Source: an uncultured Bacilli bacterium | Lineage (GTDB): Bacteria > Bacillota_I > Bacilli_A > RF39 > UBA660 | Assembly: GCA_947624115.1 (NCBI GenBank) | Contig: CANQIS010000005.1 | Location: forward strand, 1-33,294 | Length of the DNA stretch: 33,294 nt | Direction of reading: 5' to 3' | Part shown: positions 11,433 through 32,083 of the stretch, piece after piece | Layout: each line of letters begins with the position of its first letter | How positions within the stretch are numbered: position 1 is the first letter of the stretch | Made by a program: the position numbers and the translations under genes | Notes under the pieces: generated by a model | What the model was told of the DNA's origin: nothing | Databases searched by the model: none | Seen by the model: only the letters and a program-made list of their open reading frames with translations

Positions 11433-14333
11433 ATGGAATATAATTTAAAAAAGAGAGGTTTTACATTAATAGAATTATTAGCTGTAATAGTAATAATAGC
11501 GGTAATAGCTTTAATAGTAGTACCACAAATAATGAATATTATTTATAGAGTAAGATTAAGTGCGGCAGTAGATAGTGGTTATGGAATGGTCAGTGCCGCT
11601 GAAGATTATGTAGCAGATTATTTTTTGCTTCATAATGGAGATGAATTGGATAGAAATATAGAATTTATATGTGACGGTAAGAGTTGTTTAAATGAATTAG
11701 ATGATGAATTAAAGTATAAAGGTAGTAAAGCAACAGCTGGAAAAGTTATAATAGAGAATGGTAAAAGAACTTCATTAGATAATGTGGTAATAAATGGTTT
11801 TACTTGTAATAAAAAATTAGATGAAGATATAGTAGTATGTGAAATGATTGAACCAGAAAAACCATTAGTAGATGATAATCCAGGAATAATATGTGGTGAT
11901 ACTTTGGAGGAAGAATATGACACAATGGAAGTGTGTTATATAAAAAGTGTTGAAGATTATATTGGGTTCATGAATCTAGTTAATAGTGGTAAAAATTTTA
12001 AAGATAAAAAAGTATATTTAATGAAAGATTTGGATTTAAAGGGTCAAGAAATTCAACCAATAGGAAATTTATCTACATCATTTAGTGGAACATTTGAAGG
12101 AAATACTTATACTTTATCAAATATAGAAATAAATTCAACAGTCGAATATACAGGAATGTTTGGTTATAATCAAGGAACAATCCAAGGCTTGAAAATAGAA
12201 AATTTAACAGTTAATGGTCTTACACATACAGGTGGTATAACGGGTTATAATAAAGGTATAATAAGTGATATTATGATGAACAAAGTAACAGTAAATGGAG
12301 ATAATTATGTAGCTGGTGTGGTAGGAGAACAAGATACTGGTGGTGTAACCAAAGATATAATATTAAATGATATAAATATTGTAGGAACATCATCTTATAT
12401 TGGAGGATTAGTTGGAAGAAGTTATCGAGGAACAGTTTCTGGGATAGTAAGTAATTCTAAAATTAATGGAACAGGTAATGTTGATTGTTTGTTAGGATAT
12501 AATTGGAGTGGTAGTAATCAATTAAAAGGATATTGTTCTTCAAGTAATACAATAAATGATGTAGAAAGTACAAGTCCATCGCTTAAAGGAGATGATTATG
12601 TAAATATATATAATCCATATATAGATACATGGTTAGGTGGAGATGATGATGGAAATGGGTACTATTATGATTATGGGAAAGATGGAAATCTAGAAATCAA
12701 AAAAGTTTCGGATAATCCAATGACTTTTAAATTAAAAGGTAGTGGAACTAGTGATGATCCATATAAAATCGGAAGTGTAGACGAATGGAAACAAGCCACA
12801 TTAAAATCAAATCAAGTAGATATTTATTTTGAATTAACAGATGATATAGATTTTAGTGGTCAAAAGTTTTATGCGATGACAACTGGTTCACAAGCATTTG
12901 TTGGTGAATTAGATGGTAATGTTCATAAGTTATCAAATATAGAAATAAGTTCAGTAGTTGAATATACAGGAATATTTGGTTATAATAAAGGAACAATTAA
13001 AGGATTAGAGATAGAAAATTTAACGGTTAATGGTCTTAAACATACAGGTGGTATAACGGGTTATAACAAAGGTATAATAAGTGATATTGTGATGAACAAT
13101 GTAACAGTAAATGGAGATAATAATGTAGCTGGTGTGGTAGGAGAACAAGATACTGGTGGTGTAACTAAAGATATAATATTAAATGATATAAATATTTTAG
13201 GAACATCATCTTATATTGGAGGATTAGTTGGAAGAAGTTATCAAGGAACAGTTTCTGGGATAGTAAATAATTCTAAAATTAATGGGACAAGTGATGTTGG
13301 CTGTTTGTTAGGATATAATTTGAGTGGTAGTAATCAGTTAAAAGGATATTGTTCTTCAAGTAATACAATAAATGATAAAGCAAGTACAAGTCCATCGCTT
13401 AAAGGAGATGATTATGTAAATATATATAATCCATATATAGATACATGGATAAGTGGGGATGATGATGAAAATGGTTACTATTATGATTATGGGAAAGATG
13501 GAAATCTAGAAATAAAAAAAGTTTCGGATAACCCAATGACCTTTAATTTAAAAGGAGAAGGAACAAAAGAAAATCCATATGAAATCGGAAGTGTAGATGA
13601 ATGGAAACAAGCAACATTAAAATCAAATCAAGCAGATATTTATTTTGAATTAACCGATGATATAGACTTTAATGGACAAAAATTTTATATATTGACTACT
13701 GGGTCAGCACCATTTATTGGAACGTTTGAAGGAAACGCTCATAAGTTATCAAATATAAATATAAGTTCAGTAGTTGAATATACAGGAATATTTGGTTATA
13801 ATCAAGGAACAATTAAAGGATTAGAAATAGAAAATTTAACAGTTAATGGTTTAGCACATACAGGTGGTATAACGGGTTATAACAAAGGAATAATAAGTGA
13901 TATTATGATGAACAAGGTAACAGTAAATGGAGATTATTATGTAGCTGGTGTAGTAGGAGAACAAGATACTGGTGGTGTAACCAAAGATATAATATTAAAT
14001 GGTATAAATATTTTAGGAACATCATCTAATATTGGAGGATTAGTTGGAAGAAGTTATCGAGGAACAGTTTCTGGGATAGTAAGTAATTCTAAAATTAATG
14101 GGACAAGTAGTGTAGAATGCTTGTTAGGATATAATTTGAGTGGTAGTAATCAGTTAAAAGGATATTGTTCACCGGATAGTATTATAAATAATAACCCAAA
14201 AGGTGGCAATCAAATTGCAAAATCAGAGTATAGTCAGTATATAAATTTCTGTAGTGTTGGAGATACTGATTCGAATGGTTATTGTTTTGAATATGATTCA
14301 AATAATGATGAAATAACAATAAAAAAGGTATAG
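11433..14333 (+). CDS. Type IV pilin-like (class III signal) surface protein with GLUG-motif repeats
   Basis: KKRGFTLIELLAVIVIIAVIALIVVPQI prepilin signal; repeated TGGITGYNKGIISDI / YIGGLVGRSYRGTVSGI GLUG-like motifs. Confidence 0.88.
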   Translation: MEYNLKKRGFTLIELLAVIVIIAVIALIVVPQIMNIIYRVRLSAAVDSGYGMVSAAEDYVADYFLLHNGDELDRNIEFICDGKSCLNELDDELKYKGSKATAGKVIIENGKRTSLDNVVINGFTCNKKLDEDIVVCEMIEPEKPLVDDNPGIICGDTLEEEYDTMEVCYIKSVEDYIGFMNLVNSGKNFKDKKVYLMKDLDLKGQEIQPIGNLSTSFSGTFEGNTYTLSNIEINSTVEYTGMFGYNQGTIQGLKIENLTVNGLTHTGGITGYNKGIISDIMMNKVTVNGDNYVAGVVGEQDTGGVTKDIILNDINIVGTSSYIGGLVGRSYRGTVSGIVSNSKINGTGNVDCLLGYNWSGSNQLKGYCSSSNTINDVESTSPSLKGDDYVNIYNPYIDTWLGGDDDGNGYYYDYGKDGNLEIKKVSDNPMTFKLKGSGTSDDPYKIGSVDEWKQATLKSNQVDIYFELTDDIDFSGQKFYAMTTGSQAFVGELDGNVHKLSNIEISSVVEYTGIFGYNKGTIKGLEIENLTVNGLKHTGGITGYNKGIISDIVMNNVTVNGDNNVAGVVGEQDTGGVTKDIILNDINILGTSSYIGGLVGRSYQGTVSGIVNNSKINGTSDVGCLLGYNLSGSNQLKGYCSSSNTINDKASTSPSLKGDDYVNIYNPYIDTWISGDDDENGYYYDYGKDGNLEIKKVSDNPMTFNLKGEGTKENPYEIGSVDEWKQATLKSNQADIYFELTDDIDFNGQKFYILTTGSAPFIGTFEGNAHKLSNINISSVVEYTGIFGYNQGTIKGLEIENLTVNGLAHTGGITGYNKGIISDIMMNKVTVNGDYYVAGVVGEQDTGGVTKDIILNGINILGTSSNIGGLVGRSYRGTVSGIVSNSKINGTSSVECLLGYNLSGSNQLKGYCSPDSIINNNPKGGNQIAKSEYSQYINFCSVGDTDSNGYCFEYDSNNDEITIKKV
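11941..14333 (+). repeat. Three in-frame tandem units of exactly 816 bp (272 codons) period; the third is divergent and shortened at its 3' end
   Basis: Matching positions CGGGTTATAA at 12241, 13057 and 13873 (both offsets 816); unit edges approx 11941/12757/13573; long near-identical blocks. Confidence 0.93.
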
Positions 14334-14906: not shown

Positions 14907-15022
14907 TATAAAAATATTAATAAAAAAATCTTTAAAACTTCTTTTTACAAGATTTTACAATTAATCTTTTAATTATTTAAAAAAAAATGTATAATGTATT
15001 TATAATAGATGGGAGTAAAAAT

Positions 15023-16303
15023 ATGGTTACTGGTCTAAAATTAATAGGTAAAAAATATATGTCATTAAAAAATAAAGTTCAAGAATATTTAAATCCTGAA
15101 TATGTTTATATACCATTAGTAGTTGGTAATGATACTAATATAAGTGTATTTGTAAAAAAAGGTGATTATGTATATAAAGGTAGTATTTTAGGAAAAAAGC
15201 AAGGTAATTTTTCAATTCCAATTTTATCTAGTGTTAGTGGTACAATAATTGATTTTCAAGAAAAATATTATTTAAATGGTAAAAAAATAAAATGTATAAT
15301 TATTCAAAATGATTTTAAAGAATTAACTGAAAATAAAATAAATATCAAAGATGATATGAATAAATTTTCAAAAAAAGATTTTATTGAAAGATTAAAAGAT
15401 AATGGTATTATTGGAATGGGAGGTGCTGGTTTTCCTACTTACGCAAAATATGATACTGATAAAACGATAAAAACATTATTAGTAAATGCAGTAGAGTGTG
15501 AACCATATATTACAGCTGATTATTCACTTATTTTAGAACATGCCGAACAAATATTAGAATGTATAAATACTATTCTTAAAATAAATAAGATAAAAGAATG
15601 TTATATTGCCATTAAAAAAAATAACTCTAAATTAATCAACACTTTTAATTTATATATTGGGACTTATCCTAATATTAAAATATGTGAGGTTAAAAATATA
15701 TATCCTATGGGGTGGGAAAAGAATGTTGTTAAAGAAGTATTAAAAAAAGATTATGATAAATTACCAATTGAAGTAGGTACTATAGTTAATAATGTTTCTA
15801 CAATTTACGCTATATATGAAGCATTGAAAAACAATCAGCCACTTATTGATCGAATTATTACAATTACTGGTGAAGGTTTGCAAAAACCTATTAATATTAA
15901 AGTTAAGATTGGTACTTTAGTCAGTGAAATTATTGAAAGGTTTAATAAATATAAAGACAATAAAGATTTATTGTTTGTAGCTGGTGGTCCAATGATGGGA
16001 ACTACTATTCCAACAGATGATTTAGTTGTTACACCAAATTTAAATTGTGTTTTAGTTATTCCAAAGCCAAAAATATCGCCAAGTATTGAATGTTTAAGAT
16101 GTGGTAAATGTGTAAAATTTTGCCCAGCCAAACTGGCACCTGTTCTAATAAAAGATAATTGTAATAATATAGATATTTTAAAAACGTATGAAGTTAATCG
16201 TTGTATCGAATGTGGACTTTGTTCATATATTTGTCCTTCTAAGATTAATGTTAGAGAATATGTTCGTTTAGCTAAACAAAATATAGGAAAGGTTGATAAA
16301 TAA
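15023..16303 (+). CDS. rnfC: Electron transport complex subunit RnfC
   Basis: GMGGAGFPTYAKY, VNAVECEPYITADY, two 4Fe-4S motifs CLRCGKCVKFCP and CIECGLCSYICP; SD GGGAG before ATG 15023 (tracked start 14987 is longer). Confidence 0.95.
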   Translation: MVTGLKLIGKKYMSLKNKVQEYLNPEYVYIPLVVGNDTNISVFVKKGDYVYKGSILGKKQGNFSIPILSSVSGTIIDFQEKYYLNGKKIKCIIIQNDFKELTENKINIKDDMNKFSKKDFIERLKDNGIIGMGGAGFPTYAKYDTDKTIKTLLVNAVECEPYITADYSLILEHAEQILECINTILKINKIKECYIAIKKNNSKLINTFNLYIGTYPNIKICEVKNIYPMGWEKNVVKEVLKKDYDKLPIEVGTIVNNVSTIYAIYEALKNNQPLIDRIITITGEGLQKPINIKVKIGTLVSEIIERFNKYKDNKDLLFVAGGPMMGTTIPTDDLVVTPNLNCVLVIPKPKISPSIECLRCGKCVKFCPAKLAPVLIKDNCNNIDILKTYEVNRCIECGLCSYICPSKINVREYVRLAKQNIGKVDK

Positions 16304-18075
16304 TGAGAGAATTTCCTTTAGAAAAAGGTCCATTTTTAAAAGCAAACAATAAAACATCTAAAATGATGTTTCATTTACTTATTGCTTTATTTCCAATTAT
16401 TATTTTTTCTTTTTATAAAAATGGTATTATTCCTTATAATAAAGGTGTAACTGATATTAAAGGTTTATTTTTACCACTTATTGTTATCATAGTTCCAACT
16501 TTAACATCATTTGTAACAGAAATGATATATGCTCAATTTTTTTTGCATGTTGATGCTTTAAAATATGTTAAAAGTTCTTTTAGTATTTTTCCAGGTTTAT
16601 TTTTAGGTTTAATAATGCCACTTAATACTCCACTTTCTATGCTAATATTAGGAGCTTTGGTTGCTACTTTAATTGGTAAAATGTTATTTGGTGGTTTTGG
16701 TAATAATATTTTTAATCCAGCTTTAGTTGGAAGATTATTTATTATTACAGCATACGCTATTACCTTTGGCAAATATATATATCACAATAGTTACGAATTA
16801 GATACAATTACAAGTGCAACACCACTTACAAATGCTAGTGTGATAGAAGGAATTGGCAGTTATGATACATTAGTAAAACCTTATGGTAATTTTTCTAATT
16901 TTTTTGTTGGTATGATACCAGGTTCAGTAGGTGAAACAAGTGCTTTGTTATGTTTAGTAGCGTTTATTTATTTAACAATTACGAAAACAATTAAATGGCG
17001 AATTCCCACTTTTTATATATTGACTGTTTTTATTATGAGTTTTATAATTGGTGCATTTAATGATTTGGAAAGAACTTATTCTTTATTTCAAATTTTAAGT
17101 GGTGGTTTAATGTTTGGAGCCGTTTTTATGGCAACAGATCCAGTAACTAGTCCAACAACGCCAATTGGTCAAGTATTATATGGTTTATGTTTAGGATTAT
17201 TAACTGTTATTTTCCGTCATTTAACTCCTTATCCTGAGGGAGTATTAACTAGTATTTTAACGATGAATATGTTAGTTTTTATCATTGATAAAATTGGGGT
17301 AAAAGCTCGTTTTAATTATAAAAAGTCTATTCCATATTTTGCGATAATAATTATTTTAATTGTATCTTTGAGTTGTTATATTGGTTTAGAATATCGTAAA
17401 AATAATGCAGTTGAAATTGATTCTAATTACGAAATTTATTCTAAAACAATCGAAAATGATACTGTCACTTATATGGTCGGACAAAAAGGTTATAGCAGTG
17501 TTTTAAAAGCTAAAATTGTCATTAAAAATAATAAAGTAATAACTTATGAAGTTTTAGAACAAAATGATAGTTATTATTCTAAAGTTGAAGATAGTAATTA
17601 TATTGATCAGTTAATAAAGAATCAAGATAGTTTAGAAAATTTTGATACTATTGCTGGTGCAACATTTACCTCTAATGGTTTAAAGAAATTGTTAATTAAT
17701 ACTTTAAATGATTATAAAAATAATAAAAATGAAGAAATTAAAGGAAATATAGATATTAATAAAGATTATGAAGTGTTAGAAAAAAATAATGATGGTATAA
17801 ATTATAATTATGTTGTTACACATAAAAGCTTTTCTGGAACTACAAAATTAAGTATTACAATCAGTAACTATGCAATTACAAATATTACTGTTTTAGAAAC
17901 AAATGATAGTTATTATCAAAAAGTTGTCGATAATGATTATATAAATTATCTAATAAATAATCAATCAAACCTAGAAAATATTGATACAATAACAGGAGCT
18001 ACATATACATCAAATGCTATAAAACAAGCTGTGTTAAAAACAATAGAGGAATATAAAGGTGATTTAAATGAATAA
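16303..18075 (+). CDS. rnfD: RnfD fused to two C-terminal RnfG/NqrC-type FMN-binding domains
   Basis: RnfD polytopic core (GGFGNNIFNPALVGRLF, DTITSATPLT, MATDPVTSPTTPIGQVLYG) to about codon 365, then tandem domains each ending in a flavinylation-type motif: DTIAGATFTS and DTITGATYTS. Confidence 0.93.
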   Translation: MREFPLEKGPFLKANNKTSKMMFHLLIALFPIIIFSFYKNGIIPYNKGVTDIKGLFLPLIVIIVPTLTSFVTEMIYAQFFLHVDALKYVKSSFSIFPGLFLGLIMPLNTPLSMLILGALVATLIGKMLFGGFGNNIFNPALVGRLFIITAYAITFGKYIYHNSYELDTITSATPLTNASVIEGIGSYDTLVKPYGNFSNFFVGMIPGSVGETSALLCLVAFIYLTITKTIKWRIPTFYILTVFIMSFIIGAFNDLERTYSLFQILSGGLMFGAVFMATDPVTSPTTPIGQVLYGLCLGLLTVIFRHLTPYPEGVLTSILTMNMLVFIIDKIGVKARFNYKKSIPYFAIIIILIVSLSCYIGLEYRKNNAVEIDSNYEIYSKTIENDTVTYMVGQKGYSSVLKAKIVIKNNKVITYEVLEQNDSYYSKVEDSNYIDQLIKNQDSLENFDTIAGATFTSNGLKKLLINTLNDYKNNKNEEIKGNIDINKDYEVLEKNNDGINYNYVVTHKSFSGTTKLSITISNYAITNITVLETNDSYYQKVVDNDYINYLINNQSNLENIDTITGATYTSNAIKQAVLKTIEEYKGDLNE

Positions 18076-18160
18076 AAAAATAAGGTCAATTTTATCGCTA
18101 ACTATAACGGCATTTATTTGTTCAACAATTATTTATTTAGTTAATAGTTTAACTCAATAG
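18068..18160 (+). CDS. 30-aa single-TM microprotein, candidate detached RnfG N-terminal anchor
   Basis: MNKKIRSILSLTITAFICSTIIYLVNSLTQ*; overlaps the rnfD stop by 8 nt, SD AAAGGTGAT upstream, TAGTG overlap with the next gene. Confidence 0.7.
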   Translation: MNKKIRSILSLTITAFICSTIIYLVNSLTQ

Positions 18161-18981
18161 TGGAAAAAATAGATAATTTTATAAATATAAGTCAACAGAT
18201 AAATAATCTAGTTGATAAAGAATTGAAAGATTATATTGTTGATCGATTGTTATGGTTAGAAAAAAATACTAAAATTGAATTTTTGGGTTTTATTGATGAT
18301 GAGGTAAAAGTAAAAGTATATTATGGTTATATTTCTTCGAATAGTCCAATTAAGTCGTCAAAGAGTGCTGAAGCTTTTTATTTAGATAATATCAATATAT
18401 ATTATGATTTTATTGTAAAATATAAGGAACATATTAATGAGCATGATTTGTTAAAAATGTTTCAAGATCTTCAAAATTATTTTACTGATACGTTTGGGTT
18501 AACAGGAAGTCAAAAGAAGCGTAATGAGGTGTATTGTGAGCATTCGGTTGAGTTGCAAAATCAAGTAATTGATAAAGATTTATTGTCAGTACATGAACTT
18601 GCTAAAAAAGGAGCTGCTATGTGTTTGGAACGTTCGGCTATTTTGCAAAATATTTTATCTTTACTTGGGCTAAATAGTTATTTTATTTATGGTAAATTAG
18701 AAAAAGTAGAAGATGAGGAACATAGTGTCGAATTACATTCTTATAATATAATAAAAATAACTAATGAAGATTATTTAATATATGATATTTCAAATCCACT
18801 TTCGTTAGAACATAATAATGAAAAATATTATTTTCCAGCTATAAATGTTATAAGTGAGGAACAATTAAATAATTTAATAAGTGGTCATAATTATATTTTT
18901 GATAATCGACAAGTTGAGAATTTATTTGATTGTCAAGCTAAAGTTTTAAATGAAATAAGAAGAATATATACAATAGGTTAG
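18160..18981 (+). CDS. Transglutaminase/papain-like fold protein in the Rnf operon
   Basis: Putative Cys-His-Asp triad: GAAMCLERSAILQNILSLLG ... EEHSVELHSYNII ... YLIYDISNP; GTG start coupled to the preceding stop. Confidence 0.7.
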   Translation: MEKIDNFINISQQINNLVDKELKDYIVDRLLWLEKNTKIEFLGFIDDEVKVKVYYGYISSNSPIKSSKSAEAFYLDNINIYYDFIVKYKEHINEHDLLKMFQDLQNYFTDTFGLTGSQKKRNEVYCEHSVELQNQVIDKDLLSVHELAKKGAAMCLERSAILQNILSLLGLNSYFIYGKLEKVEDEEHSVELHSYNIIKITNEDYLIYDISNPLSLEHNNEKYYFPAINVISEEQLNNLISGHNYIFDNRQVENLFDCQAKVLNEIRRIYTIG

Positions 18982-18990
18982 GAGAAAATT

Positions 18991-19626
18991 ATGCGAAAAG
19001 TTTTTAAAAAGTTAATTTATGAAAATCCTTTATTTGTTTTGTTGTTAGGTTTATGCCCAGCTTTAGCTGTAACAACAAATTTTGAAAGTGCATATATTAT
19101 GGGAATTTGTTTTACTATAGTAATTATTTTATCGAATGTGGTTATTAGTTTATTTAGAAAGTTAATACCAGAAAATGTTCAAATACCTACTTTTATATTA
19201 ATAATTGGGACTTTTGTAACAATTATTGAAATATTGTTAAATAGATTTTTACCTGATTTATCTAATAAGTTAGGTGTATATTTATCTTTGATTGTTGTTA
19301 ATTGTATTGTCTTGGGTAGAGCTTTATCGTTTGCTAGTAAAAATTCAGTGTTATGTACTCTAAAAGATAGTAGTTTGACTGGCATAGGGTATACACTAGC
19401 GTTGATGTTGATAGGGGCTATTAGAGAAATTTTAGGAACTAATACAATTACTTTTATGAATAGTTTAAGTAGTATTACCGGTTTTAGAGCTGTGTATAAA
19501 GTTTATCCTGATTTTAGTTTGCTTCCTAATCCAATATTTTCTTCGCCAGCTGGAGCATTTTTAATTTTAGGACTTTTAATCGCATTGTTTAATTATTTAA
19601 AAGGTGATAGACATGAATCTAATTAG
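18991..19626 (+). CDS. rnfE: Electron transport complex subunit RnfE
   Basis: ENPLFVLLLGLCPALAVTTN, IVVNCIVLGRA; order before rnfA. Confidence 0.93.
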   Translation: MRKVFKKLIYENPLFVLLLGLCPALAVTTNFESAYIMGICFTIVIILSNVVISLFRKLIPENVQIPTFILIIGTFVTIIEILLNRFLPDLSNKLGVYLSLIVVNCIVLGRALSFASKNSVLCTLKDSSLTGIGYTLALMLIGAIREILGTNTITFMNSLSSITGFRAVYKVYPDFSLLPNPIFSSPAGAFLILGLLIALFNYLKGDRHESN

Positions 19627-20182
19627 TTTATTTATTATTAGTTTGTTAACTGAAAATATTGTTTTAACAAAATTTTTAGGAATGTGTCCTTTTTTTGGTA
19701 CATCAAAAAATAAAAATAATGCTTTGTCAATGGGAATATCAGTTATGATTGTAGTGGTATTAGCTAGTTTAATTACATATTTTATAAATAATTATATTTT
19801 AATTCCGACTGAGACAACTTATTTGAAAACAATTATTTTTATTTTAGTAATATCTTGTTTAGTTCAATTAGTGGAAATAATATTAAAACAAAAGTTTAAG
19901 GGTGTTTATAATAGTCTTGGTATTTATTTACCGCTTATTACTACCAATTGTGCAGTATTGGGTATAGTTTTACTTAGTTCTAATAATGATTATAGCTTAT
20001 TGGAAACATTAGTTTATAGTGTTGGTAGTAGTTTAGGATTTACTTTAGTTATTTATGTTTTTTCTAGTATTAGAGAAAGATTAGAAACTTGTAATGTTCC
20101 TAAAAATTTTAAAGGTTATCCGATTGCGTTTATTACCGCTTTTATTATGGCGTTGGTATTTGCTCGTTATGTAGGTGTTTAA
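19613..20182 (+). CDS. rnfA: Electron transport complex subunit RnfA
   Basis: LLTENIVLTKFLGMCPFFGTS, LPLITTNCAVLGIVLLS, SIRERLE; SD AAAAGGTGAT before ATG 19613. Confidence 0.94.
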   Translation: MNLISLFIISLLTENIVLTKFLGMCPFFGTSKNKNNALSMGISVMIVVVLASLITYFINNYILIPTETTYLKTIIFILVISCLVQLVEIILKQKFKGVYNSLGIYLPLITTNCAVLGIVLLSSNNDYSLLETLVYSVGSSLGFTLVIYVFSSIRERLETCNVPKNFKGYPIAFITAFIMALVFARYVGV

Positions 20183-20304
20183 TGGGGTTTATAATCGTTA
20201 TTTTATTATTTATTTGCAATATTATTTTATTTAGAATAAATCATGTTAGAAAGAATTGTAAAAATTGTATAAATTGTATAAATTGTAAGGGGCATGAAAA
20301 ATGA
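20182..20304 (+). CDS. 40-aa membrane-anchored CxxCxxCxxC microprotein between rnfA and rnfB
   Basis: MGFIIVILLFICNIILFRINHVRKNCKNCINCINCKGHEK*; TAATG overlap with the rnfA stop and ATGA overlap with the rnfB start. Confidence 0.75.
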   Translation: MGFIIVILLFICNIILFRINHVRKNCKNCINCINCKGHEK

Positions 20305-20567
20305 TTGGTATATTAATTGTTACATTAACGGCGTTAGTTTTGAGTATTATTATAGTATTTTTAGATTCGAAATTAGCAATTAACAATAAAGAGCAAAATT
20401 TTATTGATTTATTACCTGGTTATAATTGTGGTGCATGTGGATTTGGTAGCTGTAGTGGTATGGCTAAAAAAATGTGTGAAAATATTAATAATTATAAAAA
20501 ATGTCGTCCATTAAAAGGTGATAAATTAAAGAAAATGGAGGATTATGTAAGTAAATATAATTTGTAA
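20301..20567 (+). CDS. rnfB: Minimal RnfB (TM anchor plus one 4Fe-4S domain, no ferredoxin domains)
   Basis: 88 aa: TM, then LPGYNCGACGFGSCSGMAKKMCENINNYKKCRPL (RnfB N-terminal cluster); in-frame stop at 20565-20567; SD AAGGGG. Confidence 0.88.
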   Translation: MIGILIVTLTALVLSIIIVFLDSKLAINNKEQNFIDLLPGYNCGACGFGSCSGMAKKMCENINNYKKCRPLKGDKLKKMEDYVSKYNL

Positions 20568-26370: not shown

Positions 26371-28704
26371 ATGAAGAATTCTAATATTAATTATAAGGAT
26401 GGTTTGTCTTGGCAACAGGTAGAGGAAAGGGTCGCAAGTGGTCTTGTTAATCATGATACAACGGTTCAAACTAAGTCGATTAAACAAATTATTTTATCAA
26501 ATATTTTTACTTTATTTAATTTAATAAATATTATTTTAGGAATAATTGTTTTATTGGTAGGGTCATATAAAAATTTATTGTTTTTAGGAGTAATTTTTTG
26601 TAATATATTAATTGGAATTGTTCAAGAAATTCGTTCTAAAAGAGCTATAGATAAACTTTCAGTTATTTCTAGTACAAAAATAAATGTGATACGCGATAAG
26701 AAATTACAGGAAATAAATATTAATGAGATTGTTTTAGATGATATTATAAGCTTTGAATTAGGTAATCAAGTTGTAGTTGATTCTTGTATTTTAGATGGTA
26801 CTGTTGAGGTTAATGAATCTTTTATTACGGGTGAGTCTGATACAATTACTAAGAAGAAAGATGACATGTTATTGTCTGGTAGTTTTATTGTATCAGGTAA
26901 TTGTATTGCTAAAGTTGAGCATATTGGTAAAGATAATTATACTTCAATTATTTCTAATGAGGCTAAATATATTAAAAAAGTAAATTCTGAAATTATGAAT
27001 GCATTAAATAAAATTATTAAATTGATATCTTATGTTATTTTTCCATTAGGTCTTTTATTATTTATACAGCAATTATCAATTGAGGGTAATACATTTCAAA
27101 ATGCGGTAATTAGTACTGTGGCTGCTATTATTGGTATGATACCAGAGGGATTGGTACTACTTACTAGTACAGTATTAGCTGTTAGTGTTATAAGACTTAG
27201 TAAATATAATGTATTAGTTCAAGAGCTTTTTTGTATCGAAACTTTATCAAGGGTTGATACATTGTGTTTAGATAAAACGGGAACTTTGACTGAGGGTAGT
27301 TTGGAGTTAGTTGATGTAGTTAAAATATCTCCTAAATTTGATGATAAAATGTTATCGGCTTTTACGAATTCTTTTAGGACAACAAATGCTACATTGGAAG
27401 CAATTCGAGAAAAATATCATGACAAAGTTGGTTATAAAATAAAAGATGTTATTGATTTTTCTTCGGATAAAAAATATTCAGCTGTTTGTTTTGATGAGGT
27501 TGGAACTTATGTACTTGGAGCACCTGAATATGTAATTTCTAATCTTTCAGCTGATATAAAGTTAAAAATAAATAAGTATATAGAAGATTATCGTGTTTTA
27601 TTATTTGCTTTTGATAATGATATTAATTTAAATAATTGTGAACCATTAGCACTTATTTTAATCAAAGATAAAATTAGAAAAAGTGCGATTAAAACTATTG
27701 ATTATTTTAAAAAGCAAGATGTTGATATTAAAATTATATCTGGTGATAATCCAGTAACTGTTTGTAAAATTGCTAGTGAATGTGGTGTTGCTGATAGTAA
27801 GTATATTGATGCTAGAACGTTAATTACTGATGCTAAGATAAAAGAAGCTTTAACTGTTTATAATGTTTTTGGTAGAGTTACACCAATCCAAAAGAAAAAA
27901 ATAATTTTGGCTTTGAAAGAAATGGGACATATAGTTGCGATGACTGGTGATGGTGTTAATGATGTTTTAGCACTTAAAGAGGCAGATTGTAGTATTGCTC
28001 TTGCTAATGGAAGTGATGCAACTAGAAACGTATCACAACTTGTTTTATTGAATTCTGATTTTAGTTCAATGCCTAAAATTGTCTTGGAAGGTAGAAGAAC
28101 AATAAATAATATTGAACGTTCAGCATCTTTATTTTTAGTTAAAACTATTTATTCGCTCTTGTTAGCAATCTTGTTTATATTTATTACAAGGCCTTATCCT
28201 TTTATGCCAATTCAGTTAACATTAACAAGTGTTGTGACAATTGGCATTCCGTCATTTGTTTTAGCACTTGAACCTAATAAAAGTAGAATTAAGGGAAATT
28301 TTTTCTTTAATGTTATTGGTCGAGCTTTACCTATTGCATTGATGATTGTTTTAAATATTGTTATAATTATGATTATTTCTGAATTATTAAATTTTAATTT
28401 TGGACAGAGTAGTACTTTATGTGTTATTTTAACAGGATTTACTGGTCTTAGCTTTTTATATCAATTATGTCAACCATTTAATCAGATGAGATTAGCATTA
28501 TTGATTAGTTTGGTTGTTGTTTTTGTTTTTGGAATTGTTGGATTTAGAAATTTATTTTCTTTGTCTGTATTGAATATAAAAATGATTATAGTTATGTTAA
28601 TACTTATGGTATTTACTTATTTTATGACTAATTGGTTATATAGTTTTGTTAAAAAATTTATCGATAAGAAAGGAAAAAAATATGAAAAGAAAAGTAACCG
28701 TTGA
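26371..28704 (+). CDS. Cation-translocating P-type ATPase (P2/CtpE-like)
   Basis: FITGESD, IPEGLVLL, DKTGTLTEG, MTGDGVNDVLALKEADCSIAL. Confidence 0.93.
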   Translation: MKNSNINYKDGLSWQQVEERVASGLVNHDTTVQTKSIKQIILSNIFTLFNLINIILGIIVLLVGSYKNLLFLGVIFCNILIGIVQEIRSKRAIDKLSVISSTKINVIRDKKLQEININEIVLDDIISFELGNQVVVDSCILDGTVEVNESFITGESDTITKKKDDMLLSGSFIVSGNCIAKVEHIGKDNYTSIISNEAKYIKKVNSEIMNALNKIIKLISYVIFPLGLLLFIQQLSIEGNTFQNAVISTVAAIIGMIPEGLVLLTSTVLAVSVIRLSKYNVLVQELFCIETLSRVDTLCLDKTGTLTEGSLELVDVVKISPKFDDKMLSAFTNSFRTTNATLEAIREKYHDKVGYKIKDVIDFSSDKKYSAVCFDEVGTYVLGAPEYVISNLSADIKLKINKYIEDYRVLLFAFDNDINLNNCEPLALILIKDKIRKSAIKTIDYFKKQDVDIKIISGDNPVTVCKIASECGVADSKYIDARTLITDAKIKEALTVYNVFGRVTPIQKKKIILALKEMGHIVAMTGDGVNDVLALKEADCSIALANGSDATRNVSQLVLLNSDFSSMPKIVLEGRRTINNIERSASLFLVKTIYSLLLAILFIFITRPYPFMPIQLTLTSVVTIGIPSFVLALEPNKSRIKGNFFFNVIGRALPIALMIVLNIVIIMIISELLNFNFGQSSTLCVILTGFTGLSFLYQLCQPFNQMRLALLISLVVVFVFGIVGFRNLFSLSVLNIKMIIVMLILMVFTYFMTNWLYSFVKKFIDKKGKKYEKKSNR

Positions 28705-31700
28705 TGGTAATGAAGCTTGTAGTATGGCAGCTTATATGTTTACAGAGGTAGCAGGAATTTATCCAATTACGCCTGCTAGTCCAATGGCTGAGCATATTGA
28801 TGAGTGGAGTAGTAAGGGACGTTTAAATTTGTTTAATGATAGAGTAAAAGTTGTTGAAATGCAAAGTGAAGCAGGTGCAGCTGGTATGGTTCATGGGTCT
28901 TTACAAGCAGGTCTATTGACAACAACTTTTACGGCTAGTCAAGGTTTATTGTTAATGATCCCAAATATGTATAAAATAGCTGGTGAAATGTTACCTGGTG
29001 TAATTCATGTAGCAGCAAGAAGTTTAGCAAGTCATGCACTTAGTATTTTTGGTGATCATCAAGATGTATATGCAACTAGAATGACAGGTTTTTGTCAGTT
29101 GGCTTCGTCTTCTGTTCAAGATGCATTTTATTTAGCCATAGTTGCTCATTTATCAGCGATTAAGTCATCATTACCATTTTTACATTTTTTTGATGGTTTT
29201 AGAACTAGTCATGAAATTGATAAAATTGATGTTTTAGATATTGATGATATAAAAAAATTAGTTGATTTTAATGCGATTGAAAATTTTCGTAATCGTGCTT
29301 TAAATTTAAATAATTGTGTTACAAGAGGTACAGCTCAAAATGATGATATTTATTTTCAAGCTTTGGAAGTTCGTAATAAATTTTATGATGATGTTCCAAA
29401 CATTGTAAATAATTATATGGAAAAAATTAATGAAATAGCTGGAACTAATTATAAGCCATTTGAATATTATGGATCATTAGTAGCTAAAAAGGTAATTGTG
29501 GCAATGGGGTCTGTTTGCTCGACAATTAAGGAAACAATTGATAAATTAAATAGTAATGGTGATAATGTTGGATTAATTGAAGTTCATTTATATCGACCAT
29601 TTAGTAAAAAGTATTTATTAGATGTATTGCCAGAGAGTGTTGAGAAAATTGCAGTTTTAGATCGAACTAAAGAGGCTGGTAGTCAAGGAGAGCCTTTATA
29701 TCTTGATATTGTTAATGCTTTAACTGATAAAGATATAAAAATTGTTGGTGGTAGATATGGTCTTTCAAGTAAAAATACAACGCCTTCACAAATAAAAGCA
29801 GTTTATGACATGTTAAGTCAGCATTTGAAAAATAATTTTACAATCGGAATATATGATGATGTTACTAATTTAAGTTTAGAGGCCGATAATAGTTTTAAAA
29901 TAAGTAAACATGATGAATTCTTATTGTATGGTTATGGTAGCGATGGAATGGTTAGTGCTTCTAAAACTTTTATAAAATTAATTGGAGATAATACTGATAA
30001 ATTTGTTCAAGGTTATTTTCAATATGATTCTAAAAAATCTGGTGGTGTAACAATTTCACATTTGCGTTTTTCTGATGAAATTATTAATTCTACTTATTAT
30101 GTTGAAAATCCTAAATTAATTGCTCTTAGCAAAGATAGTTATTTATTTGATTTTGAAATTTTAGAAAATATTGCTCAAAATGGTGTATTTATTTTAAATA
30201 GTTCAATGACAGATTTGGAATTAGAAGAAAAAATACCTAATCATGTAAAACAAATTATTATTGATAGAAATATAGATTTTTATGTTATAAATGCCTATGA
30301 ATTAGCAAGAAAAATCGGACTTAAAAATAAAATAAGTACAATTATGGAAAGTGTTATTATAAAATTATCAAATATTATTGATTATGAAGAGGCTAAAATA
30401 AAATTAAAAGAATATGTTAAGGATAAATTTTTTAAAAAAGGAGAAGAAGTTGTTTTAGCTAATTATCACGCTATTGATAACTCTTTTGATTACTTAAGAA
30501 AAGTTGATTTAAAGTCAAAAAAAGATGTTGCTGATAGTATAAATGTTTATAGTGATGTATATCATACGATGATAAAAAGACAGGGTAATCTTTTAGCAAC
30601 TAGTGCTTTTTTAAATTATCCAGATGGTACTTTTGAAGGTGGTAGTAGTGCTTTAGAAAAACGTGGTATTAGTTTAATTGTTCCAAATTGGTTAAATGAA
30701 AATTGTATTCAATGTAATCAATGTTCTTTTGTTTGTCCACATAGTGTTATTAGACCATTTTTAATTAGTGATGAGGAATATAGTAAGTTACCAGATTTTA
30801 TTAAATCTAGAGTAGTGCGAGCAATTGGAGCAGATTATTATTATTGTATAGCTATTTCAATTAAGGATTGTACTGGTTGTGGTCTTTGTTTAAAAACATG
30901 TCCTGGTAAGGCTAACCAAAAGGCACTTGTTACTAAGAAGTTAGACGAGCAGCTTGTTAGTAAGGAACAAGAAGTATTTGATTATTTAGTTGAAAATATA
31001 AGTTATAAGCCAGCTTTTAAATTGGATACAGTTAAGGGTAGTCAATTTAAAAGGCCAAAATTTGAATTTTGTGGTGCATGTGCAGGTTGTGGTGAACCTA
31101 GTTATATTAAAGTATTAACTCAATTGTTTGGTGATTCCATGATGATTGCTAATGCTACAGGTTGTTCATCAATTTATGGTGGTAGTGCCCCAATAACACC
31201 ATATAAAATACCATGGGCTAATTCGTTATTTGAAGATAATGCTGAATATGGTTATGGTTTATTGATTGCTAATAAAACGATGCGTAATCGAATAAAAATG
31301 ATTATGCAAGAAAACTTAGAAAACAAAAATAGTGCTTTGTTTATGGAATGGTTAGAAAATTATGATAATTATGAAATAACTAAAAAAGTTTATGAAAATT
31401 TGGATTATGAAAGTTGTCCTAGTGAATTAGTTAAATTAAAAGAGTATATAACTTATCGTTCAATTTGGACAATTGGTGGTGACGGTTGGGCTTACGATAT
31501 TGGTTATGGTGGAATTGATCATGTACTAGCCTCAAATGATGATGTGAATATATTGGTTTTAGATACGCAAGTTTATTCAAATACTGGTGGACAATCTTCA
31601 AAATCTAGTCCAAAGGGATCAATTGCTTCTTTTGCAACAAGTGGAAAATTGCAGAATAAAAAAGATTTAGCAAGAATGGCTTTGGCTTATCCACACGTTT

Positions 31701-32083
31701 ATGTTGCACAGGTTTCGTTAGGAGCGAATATGATGCAGTTATTAAAGGCTTTTCGTGAAGCAGAGAGTTATAAAGGACCATCAATTATTATAGCTTATGC
31801 TCCTTGTATATCACATGGAATTACTGGTGGTATGGAGAATAGTGTAGAAATGCAAAAAATGGCCACTGCTTGTGGATATTTTCCAATTTTTAGATATAAT
31901 CCTGTTGATGGTAAATTTATGTTGGATAGTAAAAATGTTAATTTTGATTTATATGATGATTTTTTAAATTTACAAACTAGATATTCAGCTTTAGAAAAAG
32001 TTAATCATGAAAATGCACTTAATTTGTTAAAAGAAAATAAAGAGGACGCAATGAAACGATTTGAATTTTATAATAATTTATAA
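28682..32083 (+). CDS. nifJ: Pyruvate:ferredoxin (flavodoxin) oxidoreductase
   Basis: YPITPASPMAEHIDEWS, FGDHQDVYATR, CIQCNQCSFVCP, CTGCGLCLKTCP, TPP-site region GGDGWAYDIGYGGIDHV, DTQVYSNTGGQSSKSSP; ATG 28682, overlapping the ATPase end. Confidence 0.97.
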   Translation: MKRKVTVDGNEACSMAAYMFTEVAGIYPITPASPMAEHIDEWSSKGRLNLFNDRVKVVEMQSEAGAAGMVHGSLQAGLLTTTFTASQGLLLMIPNMYKIAGEMLPGVIHVAARSLASHALSIFGDHQDVYATRMTGFCQLASSSVQDAFYLAIVAHLSAIKSSLPFLHFFDGFRTSHEIDKIDVLDIDDIKKLVDFNAIENFRNRALNLNNCVTRGTAQNDDIYFQALEVRNKFYDDVPNIVNNYMEKINEIAGTNYKPFEYYGSLVAKKVIVAMGSVCSTIKETIDKLNSNGDNVGLIEVHLYRPFSKKYLLDVLPESVEKIAVLDRTKEAGSQGEPLYLDIVNALTDKDIKIVGGRYGLSSKNTTPSQIKAVYDMLSQHLKNNFTIGIYDDVTNLSLEADNSFKISKHDEFLLYGYGSDGMVSASKTFIKLIGDNTDKFVQGYFQYDSKKSGGVTISHLRFSDEIINSTYYVENPKLIALSKDSYLFDFEILENIAQNGVFILNSSMTDLELEEKIPNHVKQIIIDRNIDFYVINAYELARKIGLKNKISTIMESVIIKLSNIIDYEEAKIKLKEYVKDKFFKKGEEVVLANYHAIDNSFDYLRKVDLKSKKDVADSINVYSDVYHTMIKRQGNLLATSAFLNYPDGTFEGGSSALEKRGISLIVPNWLNENCIQCNQCSFVCPHSVIRPFLISDEEYSKLPDFIKSRVVRAIGADYYYCIAISIKDCTGCGLCLKTCPGKANQKALVTKKLDEQLVSKEQEVFDYLVENISYKPAFKLDTVKGSQFKRPKFEFCGACAGCGEPSYIKVLTQLFGDSMMIANATGCSSIYGGSAPITPYKIPWANSLFEDNAEYGYGLLIANKTMRNRIKMIMQENLENKNSALFMEWLENYDNYEITKKVYENLDYESCPSELVKLKEYITYRSIWTIGGDGWAYDIGYGGIDHVLASNDDVNILVLDTQVYSNTGGQSSKSSPKGSIASFATSGKLQNKKDLARMALAYPHVYVAQVSLGANMMQLLKAFREAESYKGPSIIIAYAPCISHGITGGMENSVEMQKMATACGYFPIFRYNPVDGKFMLDSKNVNFDLYDDFLNLQTRYSALEKVNHENALNLLKENKEDAMKRFEFYNNL

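Follow-up and report, generated by a model that had tools for sequence, protein, structure and literature searches.

A 30-residue microprotein beside an FMN_bind-fused RnfD as the probable surviving membrane anchor of RnfG

The closest described relatives of the system considered here are the Rnf and Nqr complexes, in which RnfG/NqrC—a protein of about 170–210 aa, as opposed to the 29–45 aa of the peptides described below—is the flavin shuttle subunit. According to a review, the RnfG/NqrC head carries an electron over about 35 Å between RnfA/E and RnfD, and the driver of this head movement is listed there as unresolved (PMC12174285). In the structure reported for A. woodii, the main partner of RnfG is RnfA/E; TM1 of RnfG also interacts with TM1 of RnfB, whereas RnfD is contacted to a minor extent (PMC11889175).

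We analyzed a window of 33,294 nucleotides (contig CANQIS010000005.1 of assembly GCA_947624115.1) from an uncultured Bacilli bacterium with a 1.57-Mb draft genome. Its nearest named relatives are uncultured Bacilli and Tenericutes MAGs, including Candidatus Faecisoma (Mycoplasmatota at NCBI), and the host and these relatives form a group referred to here as RF39-type. The carriers of the peptide are a group of small-genome gut bacteria. The window holds an rnf operon, all on the forward strand, in the order rnfC, rnfD with two FMN_bind domains, a 30-aa ORF, a 273-aa ORF, rnfE, rnfA, a 40-aa Cys-rich ORF, and an 88-aa rnfB. By their family matches, RnfC (14987–16303; TIGR01945, 367 bits), RnfD, RnfE (18991–19626; PF02508, and NF009070 RsxE with 205 bits, above the cut-off), RnfA (19613–20182; PF02508, and TIGR01943 with 222.6 bits), and RnfB (20301–20567; PF04060) are all present with their cluster ligands, and the Cys motifs of RnfA, RnfE, and RnfB are retained in most related loci. 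The 88-aa RnfB consists of a TM helix and one 4Fe–4S motif; its ferredoxin domains are absent, and the 30 RnfBs recovered from related loci are without exception short as well, at 83–100 aa. Hence, this Rnf is devoid of the usual ferredoxin-docking clusters.

Two further small proteins accompany this set. The 40-aa microprotein between rnfA and rnfB (20182–20304), with one TM helix and a CxxCxxCxxC motif, recurs in about 28 related loci—in one of them with a weak match to FeoB_associated (PF12669), below the cut-off—and is possibly another small Rnf-linked subunit. The 273-aa protein (18160–18981) stands outside the Rnf core, matches no family above the cut-off, and is confined to the genus of the window, occurring between microprotein and rnfE in just two relatives (L033 and L034). 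In three loci (L054, L099, and L100) this place is taken by a different, unrelated ORF of some 178 aa, and the L054 ORF and the 273-aa protein were not alike when compared. Elsewhere in the window, positions 28646–32083 read like a pyruvate:ferredoxin oxidoreductase, a plausible electron source, and positions 11433–14333 encode a 966-aa protein with a type IV pilin-like start (GFTLIELLAVIVIIAVIALI) followed by three long near-identical repeats.

The preliminary description of this DNA had placed the FMN domains on RnfD, and this is indeed where they lie. The rnfD gene (16303–18075) encodes an RnfD core (aa 8–337; PF03116), an 11th helix (aa 339–363), and two terminal FMN_bind domains (PF04205). 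The AlphaFold model of this protein (mean pLDDT 80.7, pTM 0.62) displays the same succession of core, helix 339–363, and two FMN_bind folds, of which the core matches the solved chains 7zc6_D, 9eri_D, and 8ahx_D and the FMN_bind folds match domain 1 of CbFMN4. Most RnfD-fused FMN domains retain the SGAT-type site or its Thr, and ApbE—the flavinylation enzyme—is encoded in the host genome. A search of the whole draft genome for a further FMN_bind domain, an rnfG gene, or a complete RnfG subunit for this complex gave none, the two RnfD domains being the sole FMN_bind matches; hence, no normal RnfG is found in this assembly, which is 90.7% complete. Helix 339–363 was itself considered as the true RnfG anchor and rejected because helices of these fusions score low: they do not exceed 5.4 bits when matched to the HMM of RnfG N-termini introduced below and reach 10% in hhalign.

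What stands between rnfD and rnfE, the standard position of rnfG, is the ORF at 18068–18160 with the product MNKKIRSILSLTITAFICSTIIYLVNSLTQ, a single-helix microprotein that its translation, conservation, and match to the RnfG N-terminus HMM mark as a probable RnfG remnant comprising the N-terminal TM anchor only. Translation and layout are exactly as the preliminary description had them: the Shine–Dalgarno sequence AAAGGTGAT lies immediately upstream, the ORF overlaps with its ATG the end of rnfD (TAA at 18073–18075) by 8 bases, and its TAG (18158–18160) has one base in common with the GTG of the ORF that follows. The window peptide matches no model in Pfam or NCBIfam.

Within the family of the host, 193 genomes were searched for RnfD relatives and 84 had them, and 53 regions around them—nearly all of these sequences being MAG contigs—were annotated. 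The earlier reading had been tied to conservation of the peptide wherever the RnfD–FMN fusion is shared, and of the 35 loci in which an FMN-fused rnfD is followed by rnfE, window included, 34 bear an ORF of 29–45 aa between the two genes, a count of kindred sequences and not of independent events. Seven further loci of a named collection carry the peptide as well, some of them being the same contigs. The related loci share the pattern KKIKxILVLTxTAxICSxLxYLV, a G-rich, ribosome-binding-like sequence precedes every peptide start, and one Cys is invariant in 33/33 aligned peptides, at a site that in RnfG is mostly A, C, or S. Changes between close pairs are mostly synonymous, with pS of 0.41–0.93 versus pN of 0.03–0.25 in most of them (0.52 and 0.03 for L033/L034, 0.58 and 0.21 for the window and L033; the out-of-register pair L037/L051 is left out). 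The ORF is thus confirmed as a real conserved gene, since its presence in nearly all loci, the excess of synonymous change, and the invariant Cys go beyond chance.

Alternatively, the peptide might be a decaying relic, translated yet functionless. L063 (genome G132) is the sole related locus with RnfD–FMN and RnfE/A but no peptide, its rnfE following directly after rnfD, so that the peptide may be dispensable there; also, the TxPxI motif that follows the helix in RnfG is gone from most peptides. However, the purifying selection, the invariant Cys, the ribosome-binding-like site in every copy, and the persistence over dozens of genera make such decay very improbable.

The resemblance to an RnfG N-terminus, noticed in the preliminary description, is borne out by profiles that agree in both directions and by clean controls. 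An HMM built from 29 canonical RnfG N-termini of 29 loci, microproteins excluded, scores the window peptide with 30.1 bits (E 4.7e-8) and the peptides altogether with a mean of 20.4 and a maximum of 37.2 bits. Thereby, 22 of 33 peptides lie above every decoy: the best of the decoys—1,748 scored out of 1,832 TM-containing ORFs of the same genomes—is an RnfB helix with 17.9 bits, and 981 compartment-preserving composition shuffles reach 15.7 bits at best. In the reverse direction, the seven top matches of the peptide HMM among 1,500 ORFs of out-group loci are seven RnfGs. Profile–profile alignment of peptides and RnfG by hhalign yields a probability of 97.7 and a score of 51.6, against 0.2–26% for other Rnf helices and 0.9% for the other microprotein, with statistics that are limited by alignments of about 30 columns.

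RnfG chains of solved structures served as the comparison reference. The first PDB matches of the RnfG profile are 7zc6_G (1.5e-7) and 9eri_G (1.7e-6), which ties this profile to the helix seen in cryo-EM; the peptide profile returned no RnfG chains from the PDB and only noise (FieF, E about 1). Curated rnfG models match the longer peptides weakly (E 0.06–0.44) and the window peptide not at all—with just 30 residues to match, such models lack the necessary sensitivity. In a class-wide search of 395 genomes, the peptide profile recovered the family members, a canonical RnfG N-terminus within an rnfCDGEA operon (G642, E 3.2e-5), and one unrelated 41-aa ORF (G202, E 1.5e-5). Two loci whose FMN domains are sisters in the tree of these domains, L058 and L080, extend the likeness beyond the helix: their peptides of 43 and 45 aa, beside which INTERMEDIATES is given, bear NQLTEPLIK and YETTKPLIE and match the VNxxTxPxI junction that in RnfG comes just ahead of the linker and head lost here. 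The full junction motif is confined to these two, and the window peptide stops after its V-N..T (VNSLT).

Single helices hold little information, and an unrelated small membrane protein—an assembly factor or a regulator—could look RnfG-like simply by being one, as the E value of the 41-aa ORF illustrates. Yet, the decoys, the shuffles, and the sister helices of the operon score far lower than the peptide, the gene occupies precisely the rnfG position, and the TxPLI of RnfG follows the helix in two relatives. An unrelated protein is hence strongly disfavoured and very improbable. Judged by these profiles, the 30-aa peptide is homologous to RnfG TM1.

It is a separate matter where the FMN domains of RnfD came from. 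The preliminary description saw a split RnfG, whose anchor survives as a microprotein and whose head sits on RnfD. The first half is upheld by profiles and position; the second half, a head that moved to RnfD, fits poorly with the 11th helix that RnfD has of its own and with fusions that occur beside intact RnfG. The survey of intermediates proposed along with this reading did recover such fusions together with full RnfG in sister lineages, in addition to the longer remnants of L058 and L080. They are found in Acholeplasmatales, in Erysipelotrichaceae (Massilimicrobiota and Traorella), and in Clostridia (Proteiniclasticum and others), at loci L116–L120, L122, L125, L131, L134, L138–L140, and others. 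Hence, the order of fusion first and head loss second is directly represented among these lineages.

Taken as one divided RnfG, the anchor and the RnfD FMN domains would together make up a complete subunit, and a tree in which the RF39-type RnfD domains are forced to group with the canonical RnfG domains is not rejected (p-AU 0.286). In the free FMN-domain tree, on the contrary, they fall among RnfD-fused domains and not within the main RnfG group (support 81/83), the helix ahead of the fused domains takes the same place in the fusions of RnfG-keeping genomes and is not RnfG-like, and RnfD–FMN fusions adjoin an intact RnfG in several other orders. The tree is suggestive of a transfer direction without settling between head loss and transfer, and a divided RnfG is unlikely on the whole. 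Since the RnfD FMN domains come with their own, non-RnfG-like helix and stand beside intact RnfG elsewhere, RnfG more likely lost a redundant head: these domains look older, and most likely RnfG shed its flavin head instead of donating it to RnfD.

The distribution of the peptide also points to its partners. Whole-genome searches of 16 relatives gave neither an Rnf-Nqr family protein (RnfE/A) nor a credible peptide. Relatives without RnfE/A include carriers of the FMN fusion on at least two separate branches of the FMN-domain tree (L059/L061 and L068/L071). Thus, the distribution of the peptide, present in 34 of 35 loci with RnfE and not found in the 16 genomes without RnfE/A, follows that of RnfE/A instead of that of the FMN domains. 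Loci L059, L061, L101–L106, L108–L113, L068, and L071 encode RnfC and RnfD–FMN with no RnfE or RnfA adjoining, and for the FMN-carrying genomes G048, G181, G024, and G142 neither is encoded anywhere in the whole genome. RnfC with RnfD–FMN alone resembles half of a pathway, one that would lead from NADH to an extracytosolic flavin and has arisen at least twice. In three Spirochaetaceae loci (L144, L146, and L148), RnfD bears two FMN_bind domains, and neither RnfG nor the anchor peptide was found in the locus; this is apparently an independent loss of RnfG.

At the level of sequence comparison, homology to RnfG TM1, the rnfG position, conservation, and joint absence with RnfE/A are demonstrated for the peptide. 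We consider it highly probable that the ORF is the surviving TM anchor of RnfG, which would have lost its FMN head after the RnfD–FMN fusion and kept its helix as a structural subunit. In such a sequence of events, RnfD would first have gained the extra helix together with one or more FMN_bind domains of its own; the head of RnfG would then have become redundant and been lost, and the helix would have been retained for its packing, inside the membrane, against RnfA/E and the helix of RnfB. Given that the peptide travels with RnfE/A and that RnfG in A. woodii has the contacts described above, the simplest reading makes it a structural part of the RnfA/E–RnfB module. By this analogy, the helix most likely holds RnfA/E and RnfB together, as a structural subunit that would be free of cofactors.

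Electrons might then pass from ferredoxin via RnfB and the [2Fe–2S] cluster of RnfA/E to the RnfD-tethered FMN domains, which would replace the RnfG head as shuttle, and further via the RnfD flavins and RnfC to NAD+. This electron path is inferred, as are the topology and packing site of the peptide and the dispensability of a covalent link between anchor and head. A more tentative idea, less likely than not, is a flavin shuttle in two pieces, with the RnfG anchor and the moving FMN head on different proteins and with redox-driven domain movement and ion pumping that would work in spite of the missing covalent link. As part of this idea, the invariant Cys may have acquired a new role near the [2Fe–2S] cluster of RnfA/E.

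The locus amounts to an experiment of nature that asks how much of RnfG the Rnf machine needs. As head and anchor are separated and both kept, one can test directly whether the anchor serves a purpose other than flavin shuttling. The locus also illustrates clearly how a large subunit can shrink to a microprotein of about 30 aa that annotation overlooks.

A full-text literature search, whose reach lay mostly outside subscription papers, returned neither a helix-only RnfG nor such an RnfD–FMN fusion. The multi-flavinylated RnfG and the NQR/RNF-like two-subunit systems of Meheust et al. 2021 (PMC8238504) also rearrange FMN_bind domains, but in those cases FMN domains are added to RnfG, or else RnfD is equipped with a cytosolic domain for NAD binding. 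Compared with RnfD/NqrB (PF03116), the window RnfD has the same core fold and differs by the 11th helix and by one or two C-terminal FMN_bind domains in fusions of this kind. The peptide shares with RnfG (TIGR01947) and NqrC the single N-terminal helix with the pattern K..I...L.LT.....C/A-S/G...L..VN..T, and with RnfG the gene position between rnfD and rnfE and the operon partners—with the 273-aa gene ahead of rnfE in the window genus. Unlike RnfG/NqrC, it ends after this helix and bears no linker helix, no FMN_bind domain, and no flavinylated Thr. With the FMN domain missing, the peptide is to be regarded as a homologous remnant in the position of RnfG and not as a functional RnfG, and the complex to which it belongs is a new variant of Rnf.
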